NCBI GenBank assembly: GCA_023079485.1
Contig: CM041092.1
Coordinates: 8,321,127 to 8,385,126 of the forward strand
Length of the DNA: 64,000 nucleotides
Origin: Archilochus colubris
Taxonomy: Eukaryota; Chordata; Aves; Apodiformes; Trochilidae
Direction of reading: 5' to 3'
Below are positions 13,401-52,800 of this stretch, piece after piece; position 1 is the stretch's first letter; every line of letters starts with the position of its first letter. Below the pieces are notes generated by a model. It searched no databases and was not told the DNA's origin. It was given only the letters and a program-made list of their open reading frames with translations. The position numbers were made by a program, and so were the translations under genes.

Positions 13401-16400
13401 TATCACAAGGCCTATTGTATTTTAGAATATGATTTCAATATGATTTTTTATACTCCTTGGAATTAAACAGAAAACTGGGAGACAAAGAAAACCATTCTGT
13501 TCTGTGCTTGTAATATGCAGAAAGGAGTCCTGGTTGCTACTGGAGCTCCTGGGCATTACAGGAATTAAAAAGAAACTGTGAAATACTATGATCATCACTG
13601 TCTTAATGTGAAATCATGTAGCATCTGTAATAACTACTTTTTATAGTAGGTCTAAGTTACTCATATTTATATATAACTATTTGCTCTTGTTCATATTTGA
13701 GAATTTTTATTTTTTAAAAATGTTATTTTTGATATGTCTCACTTCTCTAAGCACCACCTGAATCAGACAGTTCACTAAACTGAATTTAACTTTTTCATCT
13801 CTTGGGCACAGTTACTTCTTAAGCACTGAAGAATCCGCAAGAGGAAGGCAGCTACATAGGTAAGAAGTGCATGGGGCTGCATTAACAGGATCTTCATCCT
13901 GAGCTTTAAGTGCTCTGAGCTTTATTACTGCTTTTAGGTTGGGTAATCATTTATATTGTGTAAAAATTAGTACACTTGAGCTGTAAAAAGGAAAGAATCA
14001 AAGTTTTTCAAAACTAAAAATGCCAATATATTATTTTAAAAAATACAATTAGTTATTCTAGTATTTTATGAAACATTATATTAAAGTATGATATTGCATA
14101 TAATATATATTATATAGATTATATATATCACTCTGTATAAGCATCTAAAAAGCTAAACCTAAATGGAAGCATATAATATGCCTAATTTTTAAAGTTCTGA
14201 AAATCTTCTAAAGAAAAATAATATTTATGAGGACTAATAATGCAATTTATTGTGTGAGCAAAGAACCTTTTTGTTCCACAAACATCACTGCTTAAATCTG
14301 AAGTTTTTCAGTGGTTTCCTACTAACACTGTTACCTTGCAGCAATTCTGGTTATTGCAGCCCCAGTTGTGCTTTGGGCAGGTTTGGAATCCCATCCATGT
14401 TCCATCAGTCACAAAGTGAGAAAGACATATTTTGGCAAATATAGAGAGTGAAAACAATGTTGTCACTTTGATTAGCTAATTCTTGGTTCATTTAATTTTA
14501 CCCCAATAGAAAATGTTTCTGCTCCATTTTTTCCCCAGCGTATCAACTGCAGGATCATTGAATCGTCAGTGTCTCTCATGTAACTTCTGGAGAGATCAGT
14601 GCACATACTTCAGTGCAAAGTTCAGCCCCATGAACAGGCATTTTTTACTGCACTGTAAAGGTAAGTCAAATGCACGGCATGGAATAGTTCTGTGTTTTCT
14701 TCTGAGTTATAATGTATTCCCCTGAGAAGTGCATTAGGCTGGAGTCTAACATTTAGCTCACTTTCTGTACAGAGTGTATTGCAAGGCTGTAAGTAAAGAT
14801 GTTCTGTGTAAAATCTAGATAACAAGAGATATCAGAAAGCTTCTCCAGTCCTAACCCCTCAGTCCTAATGAAGGACTTCAGCTTCTATATTCACCCTAAA
14901 TCCTTCACCAAAAAAAAAAAAAAAACTGTATAGTACAATTAAAAGTGATGGCACTGGGGTTGATAACAGCTATAATATATATTATATTATATATTATATA
15001 TACATATTATATATTATATATTAATTATATAGTATATTATATATTATATATTATATATTAATTATATAGTATATATATATAATATATACTATATATATGT
15101 TATATATACTATGTGTATTGTATGTATTATATATATATATAGGATTATATATTGGCATTGTTCTTGTGCAACTATAGCCAGTTAAAAAATTAGGGCCTGC
15201 TTTCTGCAACAAAGTGTCTCCATGTATACACAGTCTGTCTACAAACACTCACCCACACATGTAGTGTGTGTCTACCAAAAAATGGGTATGGTTTAATTCA
15301 TGTAGACAGATAGTCTTTATCAGTACACTTGCAGTAAGTAAGTTTCAGCTTTTTATTGTTGGCTGCATTCCAGTAGCACTATGTGGCACCAATTGGGTTC
15401 AGAGCTGGTGTGTATAAACAGAAAATTAGAACTGTACCTTACCTAGAAATTTATAACCCACACCTAGAGAACAAACACTGATAAATCAGTAAGATTATAA
15501 AAACAAGTTCAGAAAAGCATGAGACAATAATACAGTGCATAGTTACCTATACTATGTTGACCTTGAAACTTGCCATATTTTACAAATGTTTTCCCAGTAT
15601 TTTTTCTTAATTGGCATTGGATTGAAAGGAGTAAAACACAGTTCCTTTGAAATTCATGTGAATAGCCCACTTTATTTGCATGCATTTTTTTTCTTTCTTT
15701 TGCAACTGTACAGTGGTTTTTTGCGCAAAAATAAAATATCTGCCAGCTTGAGAATTTAATCTATTCAAACAAACAATCTATGAATATATATTGGCTAAAA
15801 TAAGGTTGGGTTTTGTTATGGTTTTTTTTTTTTTTAAAGTGCACCTATATTACATTGCTGATTAGAAAAAAGATACCAGGTGTAGGGCTTATATATGGTT
15901 GAAGCTGAAGGAGAAGTTATGTTGCTAATCCCAAAGCCCTTATCTGAGTAAAGACTGCACTGGTAATGAACTCCCTATGCTTTTAACACAGTTTACCCCT
16001 GTGCTTGACATGAGAAAAGTCTCAGATTCCTGCAAGTAGGAGGGCTGCTAAATTAGGAAGAGCTTTTTGCCCTGAATCAGCAGTGTGCTAGGACCCGAAA
16101 ACATAGCTGCTGCTTCTTATTATAGCAAAGTATATGCAGCCTGTAATTTTTAATTTGTTTCTTTGATTTAAAAATATGGATATCAGTAGGAGGTTGCAGA
16201 TGAAATTTCTGACAGGCTCATGACTTTCGGTGACTTTGGAGGTGGCAGTTCTCTGAGCTGGCCAGACTGTAGGATTAAACCTACATTCCACTGAGTTGCA
16301 ACTATTGGACTGCCCTGAGCTCCAGGTGTTGGGCAGGGATTTTGAGACACTGTCATTAAGTTTTCCTACGACTGCCATTAATGCACAGTTATCAACCTGG

Positions 16401-28400: not shown

Positions 28401-31400
28401 GAAAATTGCTTCCCAAAGCAATATGTCAAGCAGCCCATCAAGCTGGAGTGGGAGATGTATAAACTCTGAGCCTCAAAGTAGCCCAGCTATGCCCTCCAAA
28501 GAAGGATCTTGGGAAATGATCACTGTCAGTTCACACCCACTGTTTGTTGTTCTTAATAGAAGAAATTATCTGAGGGTATTGCCTTTCATTTAAAACCCTC
28601 TTTGGTTTTAATCCCTTCAGGATTGTATAATCCTTTTTTGCAAAATAAGAATTTCTGTCTTCATCTTTCTTTAACCTGAGACAGGATGTTCCTACAGACA
28701 CTGCCCAGTCTCATTTCTATAGAACCAGCACACTTTCACATTCTAATTTGCATTCATCTGGCAGCTGCAACTTACACAGAAGTATTTTGCATTTTATACA
28801 ACTTCATGGTATCCTGCTCTCTTATTCTGTGTTTATCTTAAGGGAAAAATAATGACAACCTTCCTTTATAAAACTGACATTTTATTTTCTTTGGAAGGAA
28901 AGTAGTATATTTGGCTTCAATGGAAAATGCTTATTGTTCCTCTAAAAACTACATTCTCCCATTTTATTTCACCTTGTAAACCACATTTTTTTTTTTCGTC
29001 ATAAAATAGTTGTCACTCCTGCCTGCATCTATTTCTTGCTGTGAATCTGGAAGGAGAAAATATAATTTTCTCCAGTGTGCACTTCAGGTTTTTTGTACTC
29101 TATTTCAAAAAATTCATTCAAGGATACAATAATGCAATTATTTCTGTTTTCTGAGTTGACATCCTTCTTAATAGTATTATATATCCTACAAAGTCATAAT
29201 CAGGCTACTGAAAGGATTTTCCTTTTTGTCTGTTTAGTGTGACTTAAAATTGTACATGAGCCTGCTTAGAACTGAGTTAGACATTAGTGATTATGCTATA
29301 TTTTTTGTTCACTTTGTGAAAGTATAAGCAGCACTATACACTGCAATTTTCTGTTTCTTTCTCTAAAGAATAGTCAAGTATTGGCAACACTACAGCATCG
29401 TGATTGTAAAGCTAAAGAAATTATTTTGCATACCACAACTGCAGGGCTACCAGCACTAGCTAATGAGATGGTATTGATGGAAGTGACAGTAATTCAGCAG
29501 GATTGCATAACCCACTGAGCTCTGCCTTCTAGGGTAAATAAATACAGGGGAATGGCAAAGTGCATCACATTGTCAATAGTCCTCGTTTGTGTCTGGTGTG
29601 TTGGTATTTGCAGTGATGAAGCTCCAGGCAGCCAGTTGGTTACAGATAAGTTTCACATTGACTGGGACTCAGTGCTTGTCAACTCTGATAATGTCATCGT
29701 AGCTCGATTTGATGGCAGAGGGAGTGGATTTCAAGGCCTTAAGATTCTCCAGGAAGTCCACCGGAGCTTAGGATCAGTGGAAGTGAAGGACCAAATAGCA
29801 GCCGTAGAGTACGTATGTGCAAACTTTTCTTCTCTCTTACCCTGCTTCCATTTTGATGTGATAGCATTTTTAACTGCCCAGACTGTTTTCTTTGCTTAAT
29901 CAATGCCATTAATGTTTATTTTAAATGCAGTGGTAAAATTGGAAACAATATTTTCATTACAAACAGCAAATAGAATACCAAGGTGCTGTTTGCTTTCTGT
30001 GTTGGTGTTTCTTCATGATAAAGTTGCCCTTCCCTATGCAATCTAAATATGCCACCTGACTGAATTCAAATTTGTCTTTATTCCTTAGGAAAATTTCTTG
30101 CAGCACAGATGTTAATGCATTTGAGTTACAATATTTTAGGTCTGTACCTAGGACACTGCTTTCGTTTCCATCACAGAGTAAAGGAGTGATCAGACAAAAC
30201 AAATGGAGTTACAGTGGTGTAATTTATAACAAAATTTGGGCAAACACTTGTTATTTCTCATTCCCATGAACATTCTTAGACTGATACAAATCCACCAAAA
30301 CCAGAAAAGAGTAATTTCCATCTGTGGAGTAATCACATGTGACTTTGAGAACACCCTTTACTCAGGATGCCCATGTCAAAATGGTTATTATCAAGGTCTG
30401 GAAGGACATTTTCCAGAGATTCTCAAGTTAAGCCAGAGATTTTATTTATTTATTTATTTTTTTAATTGTTTCTTCTTTTGAAAGGGGTGGAGATTCAACC
30501 ATTGCATGAGTAGGCAACTGCTCCAACTTGACTTACAAGGACCAGAGGGCTCCTAGGATTCATGTTGGTCAGGAATGGGCTGCCTCGAGCAGAGCAGTTC
30601 AGGGTGTCCCTTGTGAAAGGGCCATCAGGAGCAGACCCAGCACTGTGCTTTGAGAACTGAGCTCAAATGCTGAGAGATTTTAGGCCCCATTACATCTGGC
30701 CTTGTTTTGGATGCACTGCAGGGGAAAAAGGGAGGGTGCCCTTGGCACTGCAGCTGGTTGGAACCCCTCAAAAGAAGTTGGATTTTGCCCTCAGGTTTGT
30801 TTTTTGGGTTGTTTTGGTTTTTTGTGTTTTGTTTTTTTTTTTTTTTGTCTTTTCTGCATAAAATTTACTGTGGGTAATTTATGGCCTTGATGAGAGAACT
30901 AATTATTTGGGTAATTATCTAGACTGAAGAAATTGCATTCATCTTACCTTCTTTAAACCATCAAACCCTAGGCACCTCATTACCCGCTCATTGCTGGGAA
31001 ATCATGACACCCATGACATGGGTGGTGATTCTCCCCAAACTGAGAGAGGTTTCCAACATGGATAGGAAAGAGCAACTGTTTGTGGCTCCCTTCTCTAACT
31101 GAAAAGAGGGTGCAAATGGGCAATTTAGACAAGATCCTCAAACACAAATATCTAAGGTTAGGTGAGATGAGCCCAACACCAGCTGTTTGCCATACTGAGA
31201 GGGAACTGGAAAGCAAATTGCATTTCCCAGTGCTGCAATAATTTTGTTGGTGTCATTTGTTCTACCTGATCTGCATGTGTGGCAACTCTTTACAGTGCAA
31301 GTAAATTTCTTTACATACTAGATTTAACCATTCAACAAAGGTAAAAATAATCAAACTGTAGCACATTAAAAAAAAACAAAAACTTTTTTTCTTGCAGATC

Positions 31401-41840: not shown

Positions 41841-44804
41841 TGCTTTTTCTAAAAAAACACAGTAAACTAGGTCCTAATCCAGTTTAACTCCATGAGACAT
41901 TCCCTGATTTTAACCCAATGCACACAAAGAGCTGCCCAACCTGTGGAGCGCGGTGCGTGGGCTCGCCGTGGGGAGGCTGCAGGAAAGAGTTCATTTTTCT
42001 CAGTATATGTTCATTTTTCTCCAGTTTTGATCCATGTACCTGACTATGAAGGGGACGTGAATACATGGTTTCTGTAAGAAAGTTTTTGCCAGGACTGGTA
42101 TGTTAAAAAGTCTATTATCTGAAATGTGGGGTATCTGTGTGGAAATGCGGTATGCCTTTAATGTTTTTAATATTTCACTCACTGTCCTACAAATACAAGT
42201 ATTTTTCTATGTATGTGTACACGAGGTTAAGCATCAGACCCAGATAAATTGGTTGTACTGAAATTTTTATGGATGAGTTAAATTCAGATGTTGCAAAAGT
42301 ATTTGCAGATGCAGCCTCTGGTTCTAGCTGGACTCAAGAATTTGGTACAAGGGCAGATCCAGAGCTCTCTCGCCTCTTCCTAACCAGCTCAACTATTTCT
42401 TCCACTGCCAGCACAACTGAATATTGGTACCTGTCAAAATCTACATACACAACTAGTGGTAATCTATCATTCATTAGTCTGTGTGACCCAAAGCCACATA
42501 GCTTTTGATCAAGAATTAGCACGCATTGCACAGAAATAGCATGAAAACATAGATATTTCCATAGCTTACCCATGTTAAGTACTGTTGATTACATTTTAGG
42601 TCAATGACATTTTTAGGTGAAAAATTACTGTTTGACCCACTGTTCTTAAATATGGCATTTACTAGACTAGGCTAATTAATTTATGGAAAGCTAGGAAATC
42701 AGCATATTCATTTACTGCTTACTAGAGCTTGTCTCTACACTTCTTGATTTCTGTTCTCTTTTCTGCTATGAGGACTTGCAAAATATATGAAACCTGCAAG
42801 TTATATTGAAATTTCAATTACATTACAAGATGAAGAGTAATTGCATGTCAGCTGGAATATTTTCCCAGATTTTTGAGTACACAGAAAGGCTGATGATTTG
42901 TAAATTCTTTTTTTTAAATCTTTTTTGCAGTGAGCACAGAAATATTTATGACCTGGTTTGATCAAAATCTGCTATGATTTGCTGTAACCAGCTGCTCATT
43001 GTTCCTGTGTTTTTGGCATATGTAGATCTACTTATGTCTGAAAATGAAGATGATTGCCTCTGTTCTTTCAGCTCTGGCCCTTATTTTGAGTATGGAGTCA
43101 GGTTCATTTAGGTGATAAAATGTGTCTTTTAAGACAGGAGAGCTTATATTTGATCTGAAGCCAAAGATTTTCCATGGAAGCTTGGGAGTGTCGAGTACTG
43201 GTTCCATGAACAAAAAGCAGAGGATACAAAGGTGTGACCTAATATCCCTCCTTTCAGGTTTACTAGATGCTACTGAAGAAACTGAAGAGAAAGAGTGGCC
43301 CCAAAACCCTGAACACCAGTTTATTTTGCACAGCCTAAAAACACATAGGCAAGGTGCAGTGGTCCTAGTATTTTATATTGACTTCAAGTCACTCCTGCTG
43401 TCAAGTTGGCTGCCTCTGGGGAAGGAAGAACCTCACCATTATTGATTACTGGTGCATCTTCTTCAAAACAGCTTTTGGTGCTGTTAAGATCACTCTGCTT
43501 TTCCTTTTGCACCATTTCAAGAGTGCTTCAGAGAGTGGTGAACCTGTGGGATGTGGTTCAGGAGAGTGACAGCCTCCAAGGTGCCTGGAGCTTTGAAAAG
43601 AAAAGAAAGAATTTAGTTAAAAGTTCCATCTGTTGCACTTTGTACACAAAAGTCAAGAGGGAGCCTGGCTTCAAGGAGGCAGGTGGATGACAAGAGTTGC
43701 TGATGCAGTCATCACAGGGTAACACAACATTCCTCCCACAAAAGTAGCACTAAAATTTGGCAATGGTAAGTAAAATATATGCCTGCTTTCTGATGCCTGG
43801 AAATTAAAGTACTATTAGGTAAAGTTGATCAAGTATTTGGATAGAATTAAAGAAAATAATCCACCCAAGTGTATCCAGTCCAAATTTTCATTAAACATGG
43901 GACCAGACTGCTTACCTGTATAAATAGTTTTGAAATCCAGTATCCTGCCTTTACATAAGTCTAACTCAACAACAACAAAATTGATTTAATGTTGGCTATG
44001 CCCATGGGGATGTGAATGATACATAAAAATCTTTTTAAAAAAAATACTCCATCAGACCATGTCTAGATTTGATGACCAAAGAAAAAAAGAAAAGCTTCTG
44101 ATTGATAGAACAAAGAGATGGAATTCAATTGATAGGAAGATACTCAGGAAATGCTTCCCTAAGGAAGTGATCTTAAGGAAATTATTTCTGCCTGAGTGTG
44201 TTCTGTGTCATAAGTGAGCTCAGAGTACAGGTATCAGGGGGCTTCTCAGAGAATTCAGATGCTGATATAATAGCTGATGTACAAAGGGCTCAGGTAGGGA
44301 GCAGGTACCTGTACAGGCAGATGGGCCCATCCACCAGCAGAGCTTTGCAGCTTTCTGTTGAGGATTAAATCCTGTGAGTTCACTCAGCTTCAATTCCCTT
44401 GGAATCCAGCACCACTCCTGAGGTTCTGGGATGGTGAAGGGATACTAGAACAGGAATGCTACTGATAAGCAAAGACGAGAAAAAAGAAGCAGCTTTGGAA
44501 AAAATTGCTAAGCAGTATGGTGCTTCCTTTCCCCACTTAGTCAAAGATGAGGGTGGGAAGCTGGGGCAGGGCGCTCAGTGACGGACTCAAATGCTCCCCA
44601 GCTGAGACACCAGCTGGCAGAAATTACAGCTCTGGCAATAAGTGTTCTGATACCATTGTAAAGAAGAGAACAGGAAATATGTGCAGACAAAACACAGAGT
44701 TACTGTAATAAATGGGCAGGTCTTTCCAAAATCTTAACAAAGAGCAGAGTAAGCCTGAAGAAGTGTGTTGGTTTGTTCCAGCTGCAGAACCTATCATCCT
44801 TTTC
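41841..44804. other. Intergenic sequence downstream of DPP10
   Basis: No gene recognised. A small GC- and CpG-rich patch at 41943-41985 stands out from AT-rich surroundings. Short open frames here have no family resemblance or splice context. Confidence 0.6.
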
Positions 44805-44810
44805 CTGGCA
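44805..44810. repeat. Target-site duplication CTGGCA, left copy 1
   Basis: Identical to 45435-45440 and directly adjacent to the TGTAGTG terminus. Confidence 0.85.
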
Positions 44811-44999
44811 TGTAGTGAAATGAGGCAACCAGGTGCCACTAATTGCCTGGGAGTGGCATGAGCTGTGTTAAGCCCACCTGTGCCTGATTAAGGCAGGCCC
44901 TAACTGCGCATGAGCAGGATTAGGGGGCCAATAAAAGGTAAGTCTTGAAGCACAGGTTCAGCTCATTCCTGAGCACACCTGCAGAGAGGTCAGTTGCTT

Positions 45000-45036
45000 C
45001 TCTCAGCACCGCACTACCATTGCACCACTAGAGCTC
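45000..45036 (-). pseudogene. tRNA-like 5' half unit, left arm of copy 1
   Basis: On the minus strand it reads GAGCTCTAGTGGTGCAATGG then a TAGTGCGGTGCTGAGAG stretch. It resembles the acceptor and D arm of tRNA-Ile but lacks the 3' half. A mirrored copy lies at 45155-45194 (+). Confidence 0.6.
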
Positions 45037-45052
45037 ATTGCCCTTAGGGTGA

Positions 45053-45137
45053 GGCTCTGAGGAGTCTCCAACCCGTGGCCTCAGCATTGCTCGGGTTGTC
45101 TGTATGACAGCGTGCTAGCCGGCTGCGCCACTCAAGC
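45053..45137 (-). pseudogene. tRNA-Ile(UAU)-derived unit in copy 1
   Basis: Read on the minus strand it starts GCTTGAGTGGCGCAGCCGGC (an A-box-like D arm) and contains GCAATGCTGAGG and CACGGGTTGGAGACTCC (a degenerate B box). It aligns with the vertebrate intron-containing tRNA-Ile(UAU) gene, which starts GCTCCAGTGGCGCAAT and has AATGCCGAGG after the intron. The ends can still pair (AGGCT with AGCCT, TGAG with CTCA). The anticodon region is altered, so a functional tRNA is unlikely. Confidence 0.72.
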
Positions 45138-45411
45138 CTCACCCTAAGGGCGATGAGCTCTAGTGGCGCAATGAAGGTAGTGCAGTGCTGAGAGAAGCAA
45201 CTGAACTCTCTGCAGGTGTGCTCAGGAATGAGCTGAACCTGTGCTTCAAGACTTACCTTTTATTGGCCCCCTAATCCTGCTCATGTGCAGTTAGGGCCTG
45301 CCTTAATCAGGCACAGGTGGGCTTAACACAGCTCATGCCACTCCCAGGCAATTAGTGGCACCTGGTTGCCTCATTTCACTACATGCCAGGAAAAGGATGA
45401 TAGGTTCTGCA
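45135..45411. repeat. Right arm of long inverted repeat
   Basis: Reverse complement of 44783-45056, including the 28 bp of left flanking DNA. It is 3 bp longer because of one small indel in the tRNA-like half unit. Confidence 0.9.
45155..45194 (+). pseudogene. tRNA-like 5' half unit, right arm of copy 1 (inverted duplicate)
   Basis: Reads GAGCTCTAGTGGCGCAATGA and then AGGTAGTGCAGTGCTGAGAG. It is the inverted duplicate of 45000-45036 with a 3-nt insertion. Confidence 0.6.
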
Positions 45412-45434
45412 CCTGGTTGCCTCATTTCACTACA

Positions 45435-45440
45435 CTGGCA
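45435..45440. repeat. Target-site duplication CTGGCA, right copy 1
   Basis: It follows the outermost CACTACA terminus, not the internal one at 45383. This identifies 45434 as the original element end. Confidence 0.85.
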
Positions 45441-46749: not shown

Positions 46750-47062
46750 GCTGCTACAACTCCCTGAAAGGAGGTTGGAGCCAGATGGGGGTTGGTCTCT
46801 TTTTCCAGGCAACTCTCAGCAAGACAAGAGGGCACGGTCTCAAGTTGTGCCAGAGGAGGTTTAGGTTGGACATTAGAAAGAATTTCTTTACCGAGAGGGT
46901 GATCAGGCATTGGAATGGATTCTCCGTCCCTGGAGATATTTAAGAAGAGACTGGATGTGGCACTCAGTGCCATGGTCTGATAACTGCAGCGGTAGTGGAT
47001 CAAGGGTTTGACTTGATGATCTCAGAGGTCCCTTCCAACCCAGCCAATTCTATGATTCTATG
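46750..47062 (+). mobile_element. CR1 LINE 3' fragment
   Basis: Landmarks in order are CTACAACTCCCTGAAAGGAG, GACAAGAGGGCACGGTCTCA, GGAGGTTTAGGTTGGACATT, GACTTGATGATCTCAGAGGT and the 3' end ATTCTATGATTCTATG. It is 5'-truncated and shows several differences from typical CR1. Confidence 0.93.
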
Positions 47063-49098
47063 AAAGGAGAGCTTCTCCTCTGCTTGTCCTTGGGGAACAC
47101 GAACTCTTTCAAGAGAAGTGTTTGGGGTGAGAGTTAAGGTTGAAGCAAGCTGGTTCTTGGATCTTCTCTCATTCCCCTATGGGGCTCTTTTGGAGGGGGT
47201 GGGTGATGAAATCCTGCTTTTCACAGGGAGCAAGGAGGGAGTGAAGTTGGAAATGTGTGTCTGGGAATGTGCTTGTGACCCTGAAATGTTTGGGAAGTAA
47301 ATGGTGGTGCTTGGTTGTGAGAGAGGGCAGCCCCTCTGGTCCTTTGCTCACCCTCTGCTGGGAAGGGAAAGAAACCTTGGTGGGAGATATGTGGGACCAA
47401 CTCTTCTCTGCCCTGTGCCATGAGTGGGGTGCTGTGAGGGAGCTACTGCTTATCTATGGATCGGTTACAATTCTTTTGCCTCATTGCTAATGCTATTTTA
47501 TAGTTTCCATATATTTCAAACAATTTTATGTTTTTTTTTCTCCGAGTCTCTATCATGCATCACAGCTTTATGTGTATCAGGCTAGTTTCACATTTTAACT
47601 GGATCAGTGCATGTGAAGGCAAAATAGTAGTAATTTAAAATGCAATAGGAGAGACTGTGAAACTCCACAAAGGCACCCCACAGAAATCTGTGTAAAGTAG
47701 AATTGGATGTCTGCTACCCAGTGTAGGAACAAATACAGATGCTGAGAGGGAGGGAGCTTGCAGATTTCGTCCAAACAGGGCATGACTGAAGGAGGGAATA
47801 AATGAACAAGCAAATGAAACCATTGAGCATGATTTAAATAGGATTTTTAATGGAAGAAAAAAAAAAAAAAAAAAAGTTGTGTGTTGTTTCTGCACACCCC
47901 CTGCCCCTTGTTTTAAAAAATAGAGCAGACCAGCAATCTGCTGTCAAGCTGGTCTATGACAAATCCAACCTGCTATTCTTTGGCTAAGTATCAAAGAATT
48001 GCTTTGGTGAGGAAAGGAGCACAGACCTTGAAAGCAAACTGTTGTGTATGAACTAAGCAACAGTGAATTCTCAGTAAGGGACTTCCATGTGGGGTATCTG
48101 AAATGTTCAAGACCTCAAAATCCCTACTTGAGTGCTGATGTTTGAATGTTGTACACTCGGATGGTGCTCTCACTGGAAGCATTGCTATGAGTAAGTCCTG
48201 TAAATGCTGTGTATTTTAGAAATATTTCATGTTTCTACATGGTAACTTTTCTGTTAAGGTTTGTTTTCCCAGCACATTCAGAGTCTGTGTACATAGTACA
48301 CCAGCTAGAGCTTCCATCTTCCCAGAGAAACCTTACCGCTGCTGTGCTCAAAGTCTTGTTTATGTGCAAGGACCAAACACCTTGTATACAAAAGTGAGAA
48401 GTTATTATTACTATATCAGTAATACTTATTTCCTCCTGGTTGTGACACTTATTGCATAGTGGGGACTGTGGCATCCTCCCTGGGTACAACCAGAGCTAGA
48501 GCAAATCTTGTCTGCAGGGCAAACACTGCCAGGGGCAGGAGAGCCCTTTTGAGGAGGGCTGGGGCTGAGTTCTCTGGGGCTACCAGGAGTAGGGAGCTGA
48601 GTTCATATCTGGTCTCTCATCCCTCTGCTCTGTCTTTTCCTTGTGCTCCTGCAGCATCCCCTTTTGTGTCTTGGATACTGCAATTTCAGAGCCTGTACCC
48701 ATTGCTCCCTCAAGCTCCAAACAGACCCTTTTGGTTCCTTGAGATCTGTGTCCAACACCCACCTCCTCTGGGTTGTTGAATTCAATGTTGCTTGTGCCTT
48801 GGGCTGCCCACAGGTCTGCTCAGCAAGGCCCTGGGACCAGTGACACTCAGGATTTATGTCATATGTGTACCTGCCATGAGGTTATGTATAGCCTTAGCTA
48901 TACACAGGCTTGCTCTCTGTTGCTCTCTCAACTGCTAAAGGCACAGATACTTGAGCTGTGCCTGTACATTTGTCTCTGTAAGTACAGCCTGTGCCTACCT
49001 CCCTGTCAAGCACTGCTCTTTCCTCCCCACCTCGTAGTCTTTTCCTTAAATTAATCAGTGAACCTCCTGGCATGGCTCACACAGAAATAACTGGTGTT
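47063..49098. other. Intergenic sequence, locally GC-richer
   Basis: 47090-47470 and 48450-49060 are richer in G and C than the rest of the window, but I could not assign them to a gene or repeat family. An A19 run lies near 47857-47875. Confidence 0.55.
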
Positions 49099-49286
49099 CA
49101 TAGAATGACAGATTGGTTTGGGTTGGAAGGAACCATAAGGATCATCCAATTCCAAGCCCCCTGCATGGGCAGGGATACCTCCCATCAGCCCAGGTTGCTC
49201 CAACCCCCATCCAACCTGGCCTTGGACACTTCCAGGGATGGGACAGCCACAGCTTCTCTGAGCAACCTGTGCCAGTGTCTCACCAC
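49099..49286 (-). mobile_element. CR1 LINE, 3' part (interrupted by TIR element copy 2)
   Basis: In the plus direction it reads CATAGAATGACAGATTGGTT and continues with CATCCAACCTGGCCTTGGAC, then CTTCTCTGAGCAACCTGTGC. This is the reverse complement of a CR1 3' end. It continues at 49800 after the insertion. Confidence 0.93.
49281..49286. repeat. Target-site duplication CACCAC, left copy 2
   Basis: Matches 49794-49799. The uninterrupted CR1 has this hexamer once, before CCTCAGAG. Confidence 0.92.
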
Positions 49287-49443
49287 TGTAGTGAAATGAG
49301 GCAACCAGGTGCCACTAATTACCAGGCAGTGGGCATGAGCTTGTGTTAAAGCCCACCTGTACCTGATTAAGGATGGCCCCCACTGTGCATGAGCAGGATT
49401 AGGGGGCCAATAAAAGGTGAGACTTGAAGCACAGGCTCAGCTC

Positions 49444-49526
49444 ACTCCTGATCTCAGGACCTCGGCATTGCTTGGCTTTCTACTGCTTCTATGAGCACCG
49501 CGCTAACGTGATTGCACCACTGGAGC
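49444..49526 (-). pseudogene. tRNA-Ile-like unit 3, copy 2
   Basis: On the minus strand it begins GCTCCAGTGGTGCAATCACG, continues with TTAGCGCGGTGCTCATAGAA, and contains AATGCCGAGG. The first seven bases equal the tRNA-Ile(UAU) acceptor strand. The T arm is truncated. Confidence 0.72.
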
Positions 49527-49529
49527 TTT

Positions 49530-49569
49530 CTCTCAGCACCACACTAACTTGGTTGTGCCACTAGAGCTC
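49530..49569 (-). pseudogene. tRNA-Ile-like 5' half, unit 2, copy 2
   Basis: On the minus strand it reads GAGCTCTAGTGGCACAACCA and then AGTTAGTGTGGTGCTGAGAG. It has the acceptor and D arm only. Confidence 0.65.
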
Positions 49570-49573
49570 TTGA

Positions 49574-49657
49574 GGCTCAGGATTGAACCCACGGCCTCAG
49601 CATTGCTAAAGGTTTGCTGTATAAGTACCACGCGCTAACCTGCTCCGCCACTCGAGC
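49574..49657 (-). pseudogene. tRNA-Ile(UAU)-derived unit 1, intron retained, copy 2
   Basis: On the minus strand it reads GCTCGAGTGGCGGAGCAGGT, TAGCGCGTGGTACTTATACA, then GCAAACCTTTAGC as an intron-like insert, AATGCTGAGG and GTGGGTTCAATCCTGAGCC. CTTATA contains the UAU anticodon in the expected place. The insert lies where tRNA-Ile(UAU) genes have their intron. The acceptor ends still pair (GGCTC with GAGCC), but the 3' strand of the T stem is partly lost and one D-stem pair is broken. It is therefore a decayed gene copy with A- and B-box-like sequence. Confidence 0.82.
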
Positions 49658-49793
49658 CTTACCCTTTTTATTGGCCCCCTAATCCTGCTCATGCGCATTT
49701 TGGGCCCACCCTAATCAGGCACAGGTGGGTTTAACACAAGCTTATGCCCACTCCCTGGTAATTAGTGGCATCTGGTTGCCTCATTTCACTACA

Positions 49794-49799
49794 CACCAC
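49794..49799. repeat. Target-site duplication CACCAC, right copy 2
   Basis: Lies between the CACTACA terminus and the CR1 continuation. Confidence 0.92.
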
Positions 49800-49846
49800 C
49801 CTCAGAGTGAAGAATTTCCCCCTAATATCTGACCTAAATCTACCCT
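49800..49846 (-). mobile_element. CR1 LINE, continuation after the insertion
   Basis: CTCAGAGTGAAGAATTTCCC and CTAATATCTGACCTAAATCT follow directly on 49286 once the element and one CACCAC copy are removed. The CR1 similarity fades near 49846. Confidence 0.88.
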
Positions 49847-52800
49847 CAGGGCTGAGCATGCTGAGGTGCATGTTCCCAGTCTGGAGTAGCCCTGTGGGTA
49901 ATGTTGTGCAGGGTGTGTATCCAAAGGCAATTCTCCTGCACGTGTTCTAATTACCCACTGTTGGCCATGACATAAATCCCATAGCTTTCATTTATTTATT
50001 TTTAATGCCCTTTGAGAATGCTAGCTGTAAATTTGTTTTTGGGAGGATTGTATAATTCCAAATCCCCAGTAAGTAGGCACTTGACCATGCAAGCTGTGTT
50101 GTTGCCTGTGCCCTGCCTGAGGAGGTGTTTCCAGATGAAGGGGTGGCCAGGACCTTTCTGTGTCAGCTGCTTGATACAGGAGAAGATGAGCCACACCACG
50201 TGTGCTTTGCCTCTCTGGAGGTGATGGATGAAGGGTATCTGCCATATCTAGCCCCTTCAGCCCATGAAAGATGGAAAATGAAAAGCAATCCCAACCTCTC
50301 CTGATAACTCAATTTACGATTATGGTTCTGACAAAAAAAATATAATGCACTCAGCCTGAGGATGTAAATATAAATTGAGTGATAAGCACCTCTTTTTTGG
50401 CAAAACAGTATCTCTTATAGGTTAATCCATCTGCAGAGTTAACTCTGACTGTCAATTAGCATTTTTCAGCCTATCAGTCCTGGTTCCTTTGTCACTGTAA
50501 GTAAGGCACCCTGGGAAGGTGAGGGAGCATATCTCAGCAACACTGATATGTACAACAGCATTATAAAGTGTGAAACCAGTTTGAAAGATTTCAGAGCACT
50601 TTTTTTGTAGTCCTATCTGAAGCTTGTAATTTCTGTAGATAAATAATGATATTCTTGCCATAGAAGTTTTCAATTCTTCATCAGCTCCTGTTTTGGAGTT
50701 TGCTCAGTGGCAGACTTTGGGATGGGGAAAATTCAGGAGTATATGGTATCTGAAAGCCAAGGAACACTATAACACACACTTATGATGTGTGTTGTATCAT
50801 TAACCTGTGCTTCACCCTTCATCCAGTTACTGCAATAGGAGTCTGGAGCTACAAATGTTTTGTAGGATAAGAAAACCAACTTGATGCCTGCTGAGACACC
50901 TTAGTATAAATGTATAAAAACTTTTTGATACAAAATGAAGATAGCTTGAATGTGGGAGAGGATGCCTGGAAGGAGTAAAAACAGGTTTTCAATTCTTTTT
51001 CTCTTCTTTAAATCACTGGTACAGGCTGCTTATTATGGATGCTGAGCTTTAGTGGTGCTTTGTCCCAATTAACCTGCCACCTTCTCTAAATAAAGCTTGT
51101 ACAGATGTTGCCCTGCATGACCACCAAATGTCACTGCAGCTCAACACATGCAAAACAGTTGGCTGTTTTATGTTTCCTTTATTATATCATTAAATGGGTT
51201 CTTTATGCATCAATTATTAGACCAAGTTAATCAATTTAATGCTATAATAAACTTGGCGTTGAGCACAGTTTAGGACATGTTGAAGTATGAAAATCTGCAT
51301 ATGGCTGGACATTTCTGAATTGCAGGAATGTGGACCAGACAGAGAGCAAAAACTGAAAGGTATTTGTGACATTTAATGACCATATTATTATCCCTAGTCA
51401 TGGAAGTAAAAGAACATATCCAGCTTGAGGGGAAGGATCTCAGATTGTCCAAGTAAATTAATTATTCAGATTATTGACATCTCATGTAAGGAGCTGCACA
51501 ATGTAGTGTATGAAGTGGCACATATGACCATTTTAAGAGATGCAGAGAGTTATAAACATCTCCTGGGTGATGCAGAAATGAATATACAGGTGATTCAGGC
51601 ACCACAGTTACAGAATAGATTAACATAAAGGAAGGAAAAAAAAAAAAGGAATAAGGTTTTATATAGTTGCTGCTCTGTGCAAAAACCTGTGCTGGACCCA
51701 GGTTACTGGATAATCTAAGACCAAATTTAAGAGGTTTATATGTAGGGATTCGGGTTATCCTGGATGGAATAGTGTATAAAGCTACCAGTTTGCAGTACAA
51801 AATGTTGGATGATCTTGTAGTTTGCTTGATAAGAAACCAGGGTTATGGAGATCCAGTTCTGTTACTGTGTTGTGATGTGTTTAGATAAAGACATAGAGAA
51901 TCAATCTCCTGTGCCACAGTCTCTGTTGGATCTGCATGTGCCTCTCTATATCTTGATTTTTCAATTGATTCTGGGCATAATATGTCCCTGTGAGGGAGAT
52001 GTACAGGATATAACACACTCAGGTACCAGGGTCAGGATGGTAAAACAGAGGTGAAAGTGGTGCAGATCATAGAGTGCACACTAAGCAAATACTATAGAGT
52101 TATTGTTATTTCCTTTGAGAGAAGAAAATCACCTATTATATTTGCTAAGATAGTTTTCCCAGCATCTTAACGTGGATCTGTTTAGTCTTGGTTATGTGAA
52201 ATACTCTCCATGTTCAGTGCAGGTGGAGTCTTTATCTGATGTCTCTGAGGATACTTCTTCAGATCAAGTAGGAAGAATGTTCTCTGGATTCATCACAATA
52301 AACTGGTGTTTCATCTCCAAACTTGAGAAAACCTCTTTCCTTGGTATTTCTATGGCAAATTCTGCCAGGACAAGAGATTGAAGCACTGTATCTGCATAGA
52401 ATGAAGGTCTCTGACACCTGTAATCTGTGGTTTAAAAATGAAGTAAAGCTTTCAAGTCCCATTCATCCTTAAACTTCTTCAAGTGACATCCCTGCCATCT
52501 CTTCAGGAATCATCTCTTGATGAACACAGTTTTTTCTACTCCTGTTGACAGCTCTCTTTTCTGCCAAAACTATCTTTTTTTCAGGAAACAATTGCATTTC
52601 TTTAGCTCTTTGTCCTGATGAAAACTAATGAGACACACTAATGCTCCCTGAGTTGTGTTTGATGGGCAATAAAAACTTGCACTCTCCTGCTGTATTGATT
52701 TGCAGCTCCCCCCAGCATTCAATACCATGAGCCAAATTCCCTGGGAATTATGGCCACTTCAAACTCTGCTGTTACATTAATCTTGTCTAGCAGCCTGCTT

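Follow-up and report, generated by a model that had tools for sequence, protein, structure and literature searches.

The window, that is, the whole stretch of 64,000 nucleotides of Archilochus colubris DNA analyzed in this work, harbors two palindromic elements, one of 624 bp (copy 1, minus strand, 44811-45434), which is rearranged, likely by a template switch, and one of 507 bp (copy 2, minus strand, 49287-49793), both of which carry tRNA-derived sequence between two inverted arms. The two elements probably represent a non-autonomous DNA transposon, which would have captured the region of a tRNA-Ile gene and taken it along when moving, a reading to which we assign a probability of roughly 0.6; they are thus classed as a non-autonomous terminal inverted repeat (TIR) element with captured tRNA-Ile sequence, leaving the superfamily unassigned. 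None of the literature matches listed describes such an element, and an earlier description may exist.

Ends, arms, and target site duplications

Both elements have TGT...ACA ends and inverted repeats of about 129 bp. The sequence TGTAGTGAAATGAGGCAACC opens both copies and its reverse complement closes both; the 20-bp ends are identical and the 6-bp target site duplications are perfect in two out of two copies. Copy 2, which lies within a CR1-like repeat and reads TGTAGTGAAATG...CATTTCACTACA according to its ends, its flanks, and BLAST, is flanked by CACCAC (49281-49286 on the left and 49794-49799 on the right, plus strand), and copy 1 is flanked by CTGGCA (44805-44810 and 45435-45440, plus strand). 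Shifting the element ends by up to 4 bases left 6 bp as the longest duplication in both copies; a hAT element, which would leave an 8-bp duplication, is ruled out by this value. The 18-base end occurs five times in the window, each time exactly, and 0.05 occurrences are expected at up to three mismatches.

The arms of copy 2 occupy positions 49287-49415 (plus strand, downstream of the tRNA-derived units, with TTTT, a predicted pol III terminator, at the inner edge) and 49666-49793 (minus strand, upstream of the units), and share 90.7% identity over 129 columns in the BLAST comparison. Folded as a DNA strand, copy 2 has an energy of -168.2 kcal/mol, with a z value of -19 relative to 100 shuffles. 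Inverted repeats at the exact ends and a fixed 6-bp duplication (in both copies, which are only two) are what is found in TIR DNA transposons of the MITE or foldback type.

No third copy was retrieved from the window by BLAST (E ≤ 1e-3), and no ORF of 110 residues or more overlaps either element; moreover, neither a transposase nor an autonomous relative was seen, the copies being only two and both in one window. Probing viral contigs, prokaryotic genomes, plasmids, and phages did not retrieve further copies, a result of little weight, since such collections are not expected to hold bird DNA.

tRNA-Ile(UAU)-derived units of copy 2

As a query we took the spliced form of tRNA-Ile(UAU) given in PMC12135372, placed a free slot after TTATA, and aligned it with both strands of both elements; the slot was 16 nt long, a length chosen to fit unit 1 of copy 2. 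The alignment scores were compared with those of 300 dinucleotide shuffles of the element strand, using the same slot, and with those of 940 decoys, i.e., tRNAs with a length of 61-109 nt that ARAGORN had predicted in 120 phage stretches (repeated ones were retained), each run without a slot and with the slot at ten different places.

Unit 1 of copy 2 (49657-49571, minus strand) scored 80, the best of the 300 shuffles reaching 27. It keeps the TAT anticodon, shows an A-box match (TGGCGGAGCAGG, from 49650), and reads, in this order, GGTACTTATA, an insert of 16 nt (49619-49604) located by the alignment at the position of the tRNA-Ile(UAU) intron, and ATGCTGAGG. Unit 2 (49526-49435, minus strand) scored 63, again with shuffles at most at 27; as in unit 1, an insert, here of 21 nt (49489-49469), occupies the intron site and is followed by ATGCCGAGG, and the anticodon region is decayed, reading GGTGCTCATA and not GGTACTTATA. 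With a slot-free query the two units still scored 60 and 47, respectively, and the plus strand of copy 2 scored 23, its shuffles reaching up to 30. The best phage decoys for units 1 and 2 (69 and 43) were both Ile(tat) tRNAs. Unit 1 of copy 2 is the only aligned unit that keeps the TAT anticodon, and the only one in which this anticodon goes together with an intron-site insert.

The presence of an intron at this site is in agreement with a zebrafish pre-tRNA primer given in PMC2229849, which continues beyond GGTACTTATA into other sequence, and with the length of a typical human tRNA-Ile(UAU) gene as stated in PMC4694795 (93 nt, versus 74 nt for the spliced form).

Between the two units lies a half unit (49568-49528, minus strand), which duplicates the 5' half of unit 2 in tandem over 41 bp: Tandem Repeats Finder reported a 41-bp period with 2.0 copies at 49487-49568, and 32 out of 41 bases are identical between 49568-49528 and 49527-49487. 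When aligned alone, the half unit scores 25, a value that falls within the shuffle range and ties the best decoy.

The original prediction had placed two tRNA-Ile(UAU) units on the minus strand, at 49657-49574 and 49526-49444, with the same sequence at the anticodon, an insert at the intron position, and a 5' half unit between them. Both units and both inserts were recovered by our alignments; the anticodon sequence was found in unit 1 and is lost in unit 2, and the half unit holds as a duplication and is not recognizable as tRNA by its own score.

tRNA-derived units of copy 1

Unit 1 of copy 1 (45053-45137, minus strand), detected by both alignment and covariance search, lies in the loop between the arms; its aligned portion (45137-45062) scored 46, with shuffles at most at 31. 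Unit 2 (45034-44974, minus strand) is decayed and scored 35, the best of 300 shuffles being 31. Lastly, a plus-strand unit (45157-45235) was aligned between 45157 and 45220, with a score of 32 and shuffles at most at 29. Two of these values are exceeded by decoys, that is, by an Asp tRNA in the case of unit 1 (50 versus 46) and by an Arg tRNA in the case of the plus-strand unit (35 versus 32). Because the decoys score higher, copy 1 has no unit that is assignable to isoleucine when taken by itself, and an assignment to Ile from the unit's own sequence is possible only for copy 2; hence the isotype proposed in the original prediction is retained for this copy and not for the other, considered by itself. 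The homology of the unit at 45053-45137 with tRNA rests on its position and on its rank in the covariance search (see below); this rank, together with the alignment of copy 1 to copy 2, suggests that both copies hold the same tRNA. The predicted tandem set takes two forms: copy 2 has two units plus the 41-bp duplication, and copy 1 has two units, one of which is also present in inverted orientation.

Covariance, gene-finder, and folding analyses

The printed tRNA was combined with 14 Ile(tat) tRNAs of phages into a covariance model with a cloverleaf structure, which was run on both strands of the 64 kb with the filters off. It retrieved 15 matches at E ≤ 10 (the E-values being rough), the top three of which are units of the two elements: unit 1 of copy 2 (49657-49567, 27.7 bits, E 2.6e-6), unit 1 of copy 1 (45137-45088, 16.8 bits, E 0.007), and unit 2 of copy 2 (49526-49443, 13.5 bits, E 0.077). 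The fourth match lies outside the elements and has 12.0 bits. In copy 2, tRNA homology is thus firm for unit 1 and, once the alignment scores are added, for unit 2 as well; a chance similarity of the units of copy 2 is ruled out by the shuffle alignments together with the covariance ranking.

The Rfam models, in turn, gave no match in the window at the gathering score, and no tRNA match on either element even at E ≤ 10; the units are thus recovered by our covariance model and not by that of Rfam. The threshold of the covariance family is not reached by any unit, the best value of our own model being the 27.7 bits reported above. ARAGORN with default settings did not predict any tRNA. With the threshold relaxed to 90% and without introns, it gave two predictions in the window, one of which is the copy 1 unit (called Val), and at 85% it gave seven, including the same copy 1 unit and unit 1 of copy 2 (Ile, tat); at 80% with introns, the predictions were 117, whereas 20 simulated windows gave 121.65 on average, a control that covers this last setting only. 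We consider all of these relaxed runs weak evidence. Furthermore, the RNA folds of three of the units were not better than those of shuffled sequences (z 0.25, 0.86, and 0.21), and no intron-bearing tRNA-Ile pattern was found in viral contigs.

Since the Rfam and ARAGORN defaults are empty and the folds do not surpass those of shuffles, the units are to be regarded as decayed tRNA-derived cargo and not as working genes; the term "gene copies", with which they had been described in the original prediction, is not supported.

A probable template switch in copy 1

Copy 1 contains a tract at 45135-45411 (plus strand) that repeats 45056-44783 in inverted orientation, apart from a gap of 3 bases, and carries the second, inverted unit 2. 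The inverted arms of this copy (44778-45018 and 45176-45416) show 98% agreement, and only 3 mismatches over 236 positions separate 44783-45018 from its inverted counterpart, the host flank 44783-44810 included. Inside copy 1, indeed, a 25-bp segment (45384-45408, plus strand) is the exact reverse complement of the host flank 44786-44810; it sits between the inner end of the arm and a 26-bp end piece (45409-45434), which is followed by the CTGGCA duplication. The flank reads CCAGCTGC at the switch point and the arm reads CCAGGTGC, with an 8-base near match, CCAG[C/G]TGC. The tract continues through 45135-45173, the inverted partner of 45018-45056 (95%). Moreover, the two arms of copy 1 agree with each other at 134 out of 135 positions and with either arm of copy 2 at 122-124 out of 135.

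The simplest account of these data is a single template switch across the hairpin of copy 1, which likely occurred after the insertion, the mechanism being inferred; such a switch would have overwritten the upstream side of the element with the downstream side in inverted orientation and, in addition, with 25 bp of host DNA. The scar of copy 1 is a clear natural record, whose simplest reading is that hairpin-guided DNA synthesis drew host sequence into a transposon.

At the inner ends of the same arms (44933-44943, plus strand, and 45261-45251, minus strand) a splice-donor-like sequence, AAAAGGTAAGT, is located beside a TATA-like one, AATAAAAGG.

Possible origin of the elements

If the tract attributed to the template switch is set aside, copies 1 and 2 have their parts in the same order (arm, then units 1 and 2, then the other arm), and no match was found between the flanks of one and those of the other. 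This order, shared at two different sites, implies that the units were aboard before both insertions. We can depict the following scenario: an intron-containing tRNA-Ile gene region would have been captured by a TIR element before at least two insertions, the source being presumably the gene or its precursor, since the intron is retained; unit 2 might have arisen by duplication, or else a second gene in the neighbourhood was its source. Integrase-type DDE enzymes leave TG...CA ends together with a short duplication of fixed length, here 6 bp, and the mover was presumably a transposase of this type acting in trans. MITEs and foldback elements that have captured pieces of host genes are short, non-coding, and provided with long inverted repeats, like the element described here; the difference is that the captured piece consists of tRNA gene sequence, with two units and an insert at the intron site.

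A different origin, which we consider unlikely and yet the first to be weighed, is that of a solo LTR, or another LTR derivative of an endogenous retrovirus, that turned palindromic and acquired tRNA sequence. Avian solo LTRs resemble the element in the TG...CA ends, the 4-6 bp duplication, and the size; long inverted arms are present here in both copies (129 columns at 90.7% identity in copy 2), together with a tRNA-derived interior. LTRs have only short terminal inverted repeats, and tRNA-derived units are not known to be part of them. The duplications of 6 bp and the TG...CA ends do agree with the rule of thumb for solo LTRs in a curation guide (50-500 nt, TGT start, CAC end or variants, 4-6 bp duplications, as worded in PMC8969392), and a study of bird solo LTRs, as described in PMC11009239, works with duplications of 4-6 bp; the TGT...ACA ends and the lengths of 507 and 624 bp are near the wording of the guide without coinciding with it.

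Pol III features and the SINE route

tRNA-like repeats of animals are usually ascribed to SINEs, which spread through RNA. The A box was matched in unit 1 of both copies, and the full B-box pattern in neither, a shorter one, GTTCAATCC, being present in copy 2. In both copies, the first minus-strand TTTT after unit 1 (49415-49412 in copy 2, 44936-44933 in copy 1) lies where the arm begins on its inner side. A pol III transcript starting from unit 1, if made, is therefore predicted to contain neither the upstream arm nor the outer part of the downstream one (125 bp in copy 2, 122 bp in copy 1). An RNA made from the internal promoter and lacking the outer arms could not regenerate them, which argues against retroposition of the SINE type. 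Moreover, unit 1 of copy 2 begins 136 bp inside the element and not at the 5' end of the mobile unit, and neither a LINE-related nor an A-rich 3' tail was read, both ends being inverted-repeat arms. The distinction from an ordinary tRNA-headed SINE, drawn in the original prediction from the location of the units in a TIR element, is supported by the inverted repeats and the target duplications.

These data also bear on the idea that a tRNA-Ile-headed SINE landed in a palindromic transposon and the two then spread together, a nested insertion that we regard as rather improbable. Passerine birds do have a tRNA-Ile-headed SINE, TguSINE1 of the zebra finch (PMC5729268), and in some bird genomes, as reported in PMC8044554, the tRNA-like sequences located within transposable elements number from hundreds to thousands. 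The TguSINE1 described in PMC5729268 shares with our element a tRNA-Ile-derived part in a bird genome and is formed by a tRNA head and a CR1-derived tail, whereas here there are two units, no tail, TIRs, an insert at the intron site, and, in both copies, a 6-bp duplication; in the main text of that paper, the words "anticodon" and "inverted repeat" do not occur. Further observations stand against a nested SINE: as read, neither a CR1-like tail nor an A-run separates the units from the arm; the only direct repeats of at least 12 nt in the region are the tRNA units themselves; the units have an insert at the intron site; and the similarity between the arms extends into the first bases of unit 1.

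Comparison with other elements

Maverick/Polinton elements combine long inverted repeats with 6-bp duplications, and a miniature derivative of this group, inserted by a retroviral-type integrase, would account for both features. We hold this origin to be very doubtful: with about 129 bp, the arms are shorter than expected of the group, the characteristic genes were not encountered (no ORF of at least 110 residues overlaps the elements), and the termini of Mavericks/Polintons differ from the TG...CA ends seen here. According to the description in PMC8969392, the TIRs of Mavericks extend over hundreds of nucleotides, their duplications are of 6 bp, and autonomous ones are 15-40 kb long, versus the 507-624 bp of our elements.

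The Dada DNA transposons, as described in PMC3706591, resemble the element in their 6-7 bp duplications and in their link with tRNA genes; they insert, however, into multicopy small RNA genes, whereas here the tRNA lies inside the element, and terminal inverted repeats, which the element has, were not found in them according to the same source. On the basis of TIR presence and of the target, Dada was rejected; the target of copy 2 is a CR1-like repeat and, at the gathering score, no Rfam family was found in the window around either target site. Working tRNA-Ile(UAU) genes with the element as their carrier, to which the TAT anticodon, the intron-site insert, and the A box of unit 1 of copy 2 might point, are hardly credible and were rejected on the Rfam, ARAGORN, and folding results, the full B box also being missing with only GTTCAATCC in its place. 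Overall, the element is not a full match to any of Maverick, solo LTR, Dada, or TguSINE1.

Returning to a non-autonomous transposon with captured tRNA-Ile sequence, a broader and more tentative reading, which we would not favor as a whole, is that the two copies belong to a palindromic TG...CA family of the bird lineage, moved by a retroviral-type integrase and having an intron-bearing tRNA-Ile(UAU) pair as its permanent core. In such a family, copies of tRNA-Ile(TAT) would be scattered over the genome at the DNA level, the pol III promoter of the tRNA would be a working part of the element, and the palindrome would make the copies hot spots of template switching. If true, this would represent a DNA-level route multiplying tRNA genes and pseudogenes, different from the usual SINE route, and the counts of tRNA-Ile(TAT) genes in such genomes would need a different reading.

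Genomic surroundings

Copy 2 splits what we take to be the 3' part of a CR1 repeat (49100-49286 and 49800-49960). When its flanks were joined, BLAST matched them for only 38 bp to another CR1-like end in the window; the putative empty site is thus derived from the CR1 consensus, no other repeat of the window spanning the insertion site, and a search of viral contigs for the CR1 pattern of an empty-site relative did not retrieve any. A further stretch, at 46850-47065, is presumably another CR1-like 3' end, with TTCTATGATTCTATGA. Tandem Repeats Finder also reported a TA-rich tandem repeat, with a period of 7 or 2, at 14971-15141.

Regarding coding sequences, 10 out of the 15 stop-to-stop ORFs of 110 residues or more were probed against Pfam, with a single match, Peptidase_S9. 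An exon at 29606-29815 (plus strand) matches the inactive dipeptidyl peptidase 10 (PDB 4wjl, E 2.9e-33), and exon-like stretches on the same strand, at about 35.6, 36.3, 36.5, 38.1, and 39.6 kb, carry what we take to be DPP10-like motifs. The last of them (39.6 kb, to about 39740) ends in a stop, and the two elements lie about 5 and 9.5 kb downstream of the DPP10-like exons.
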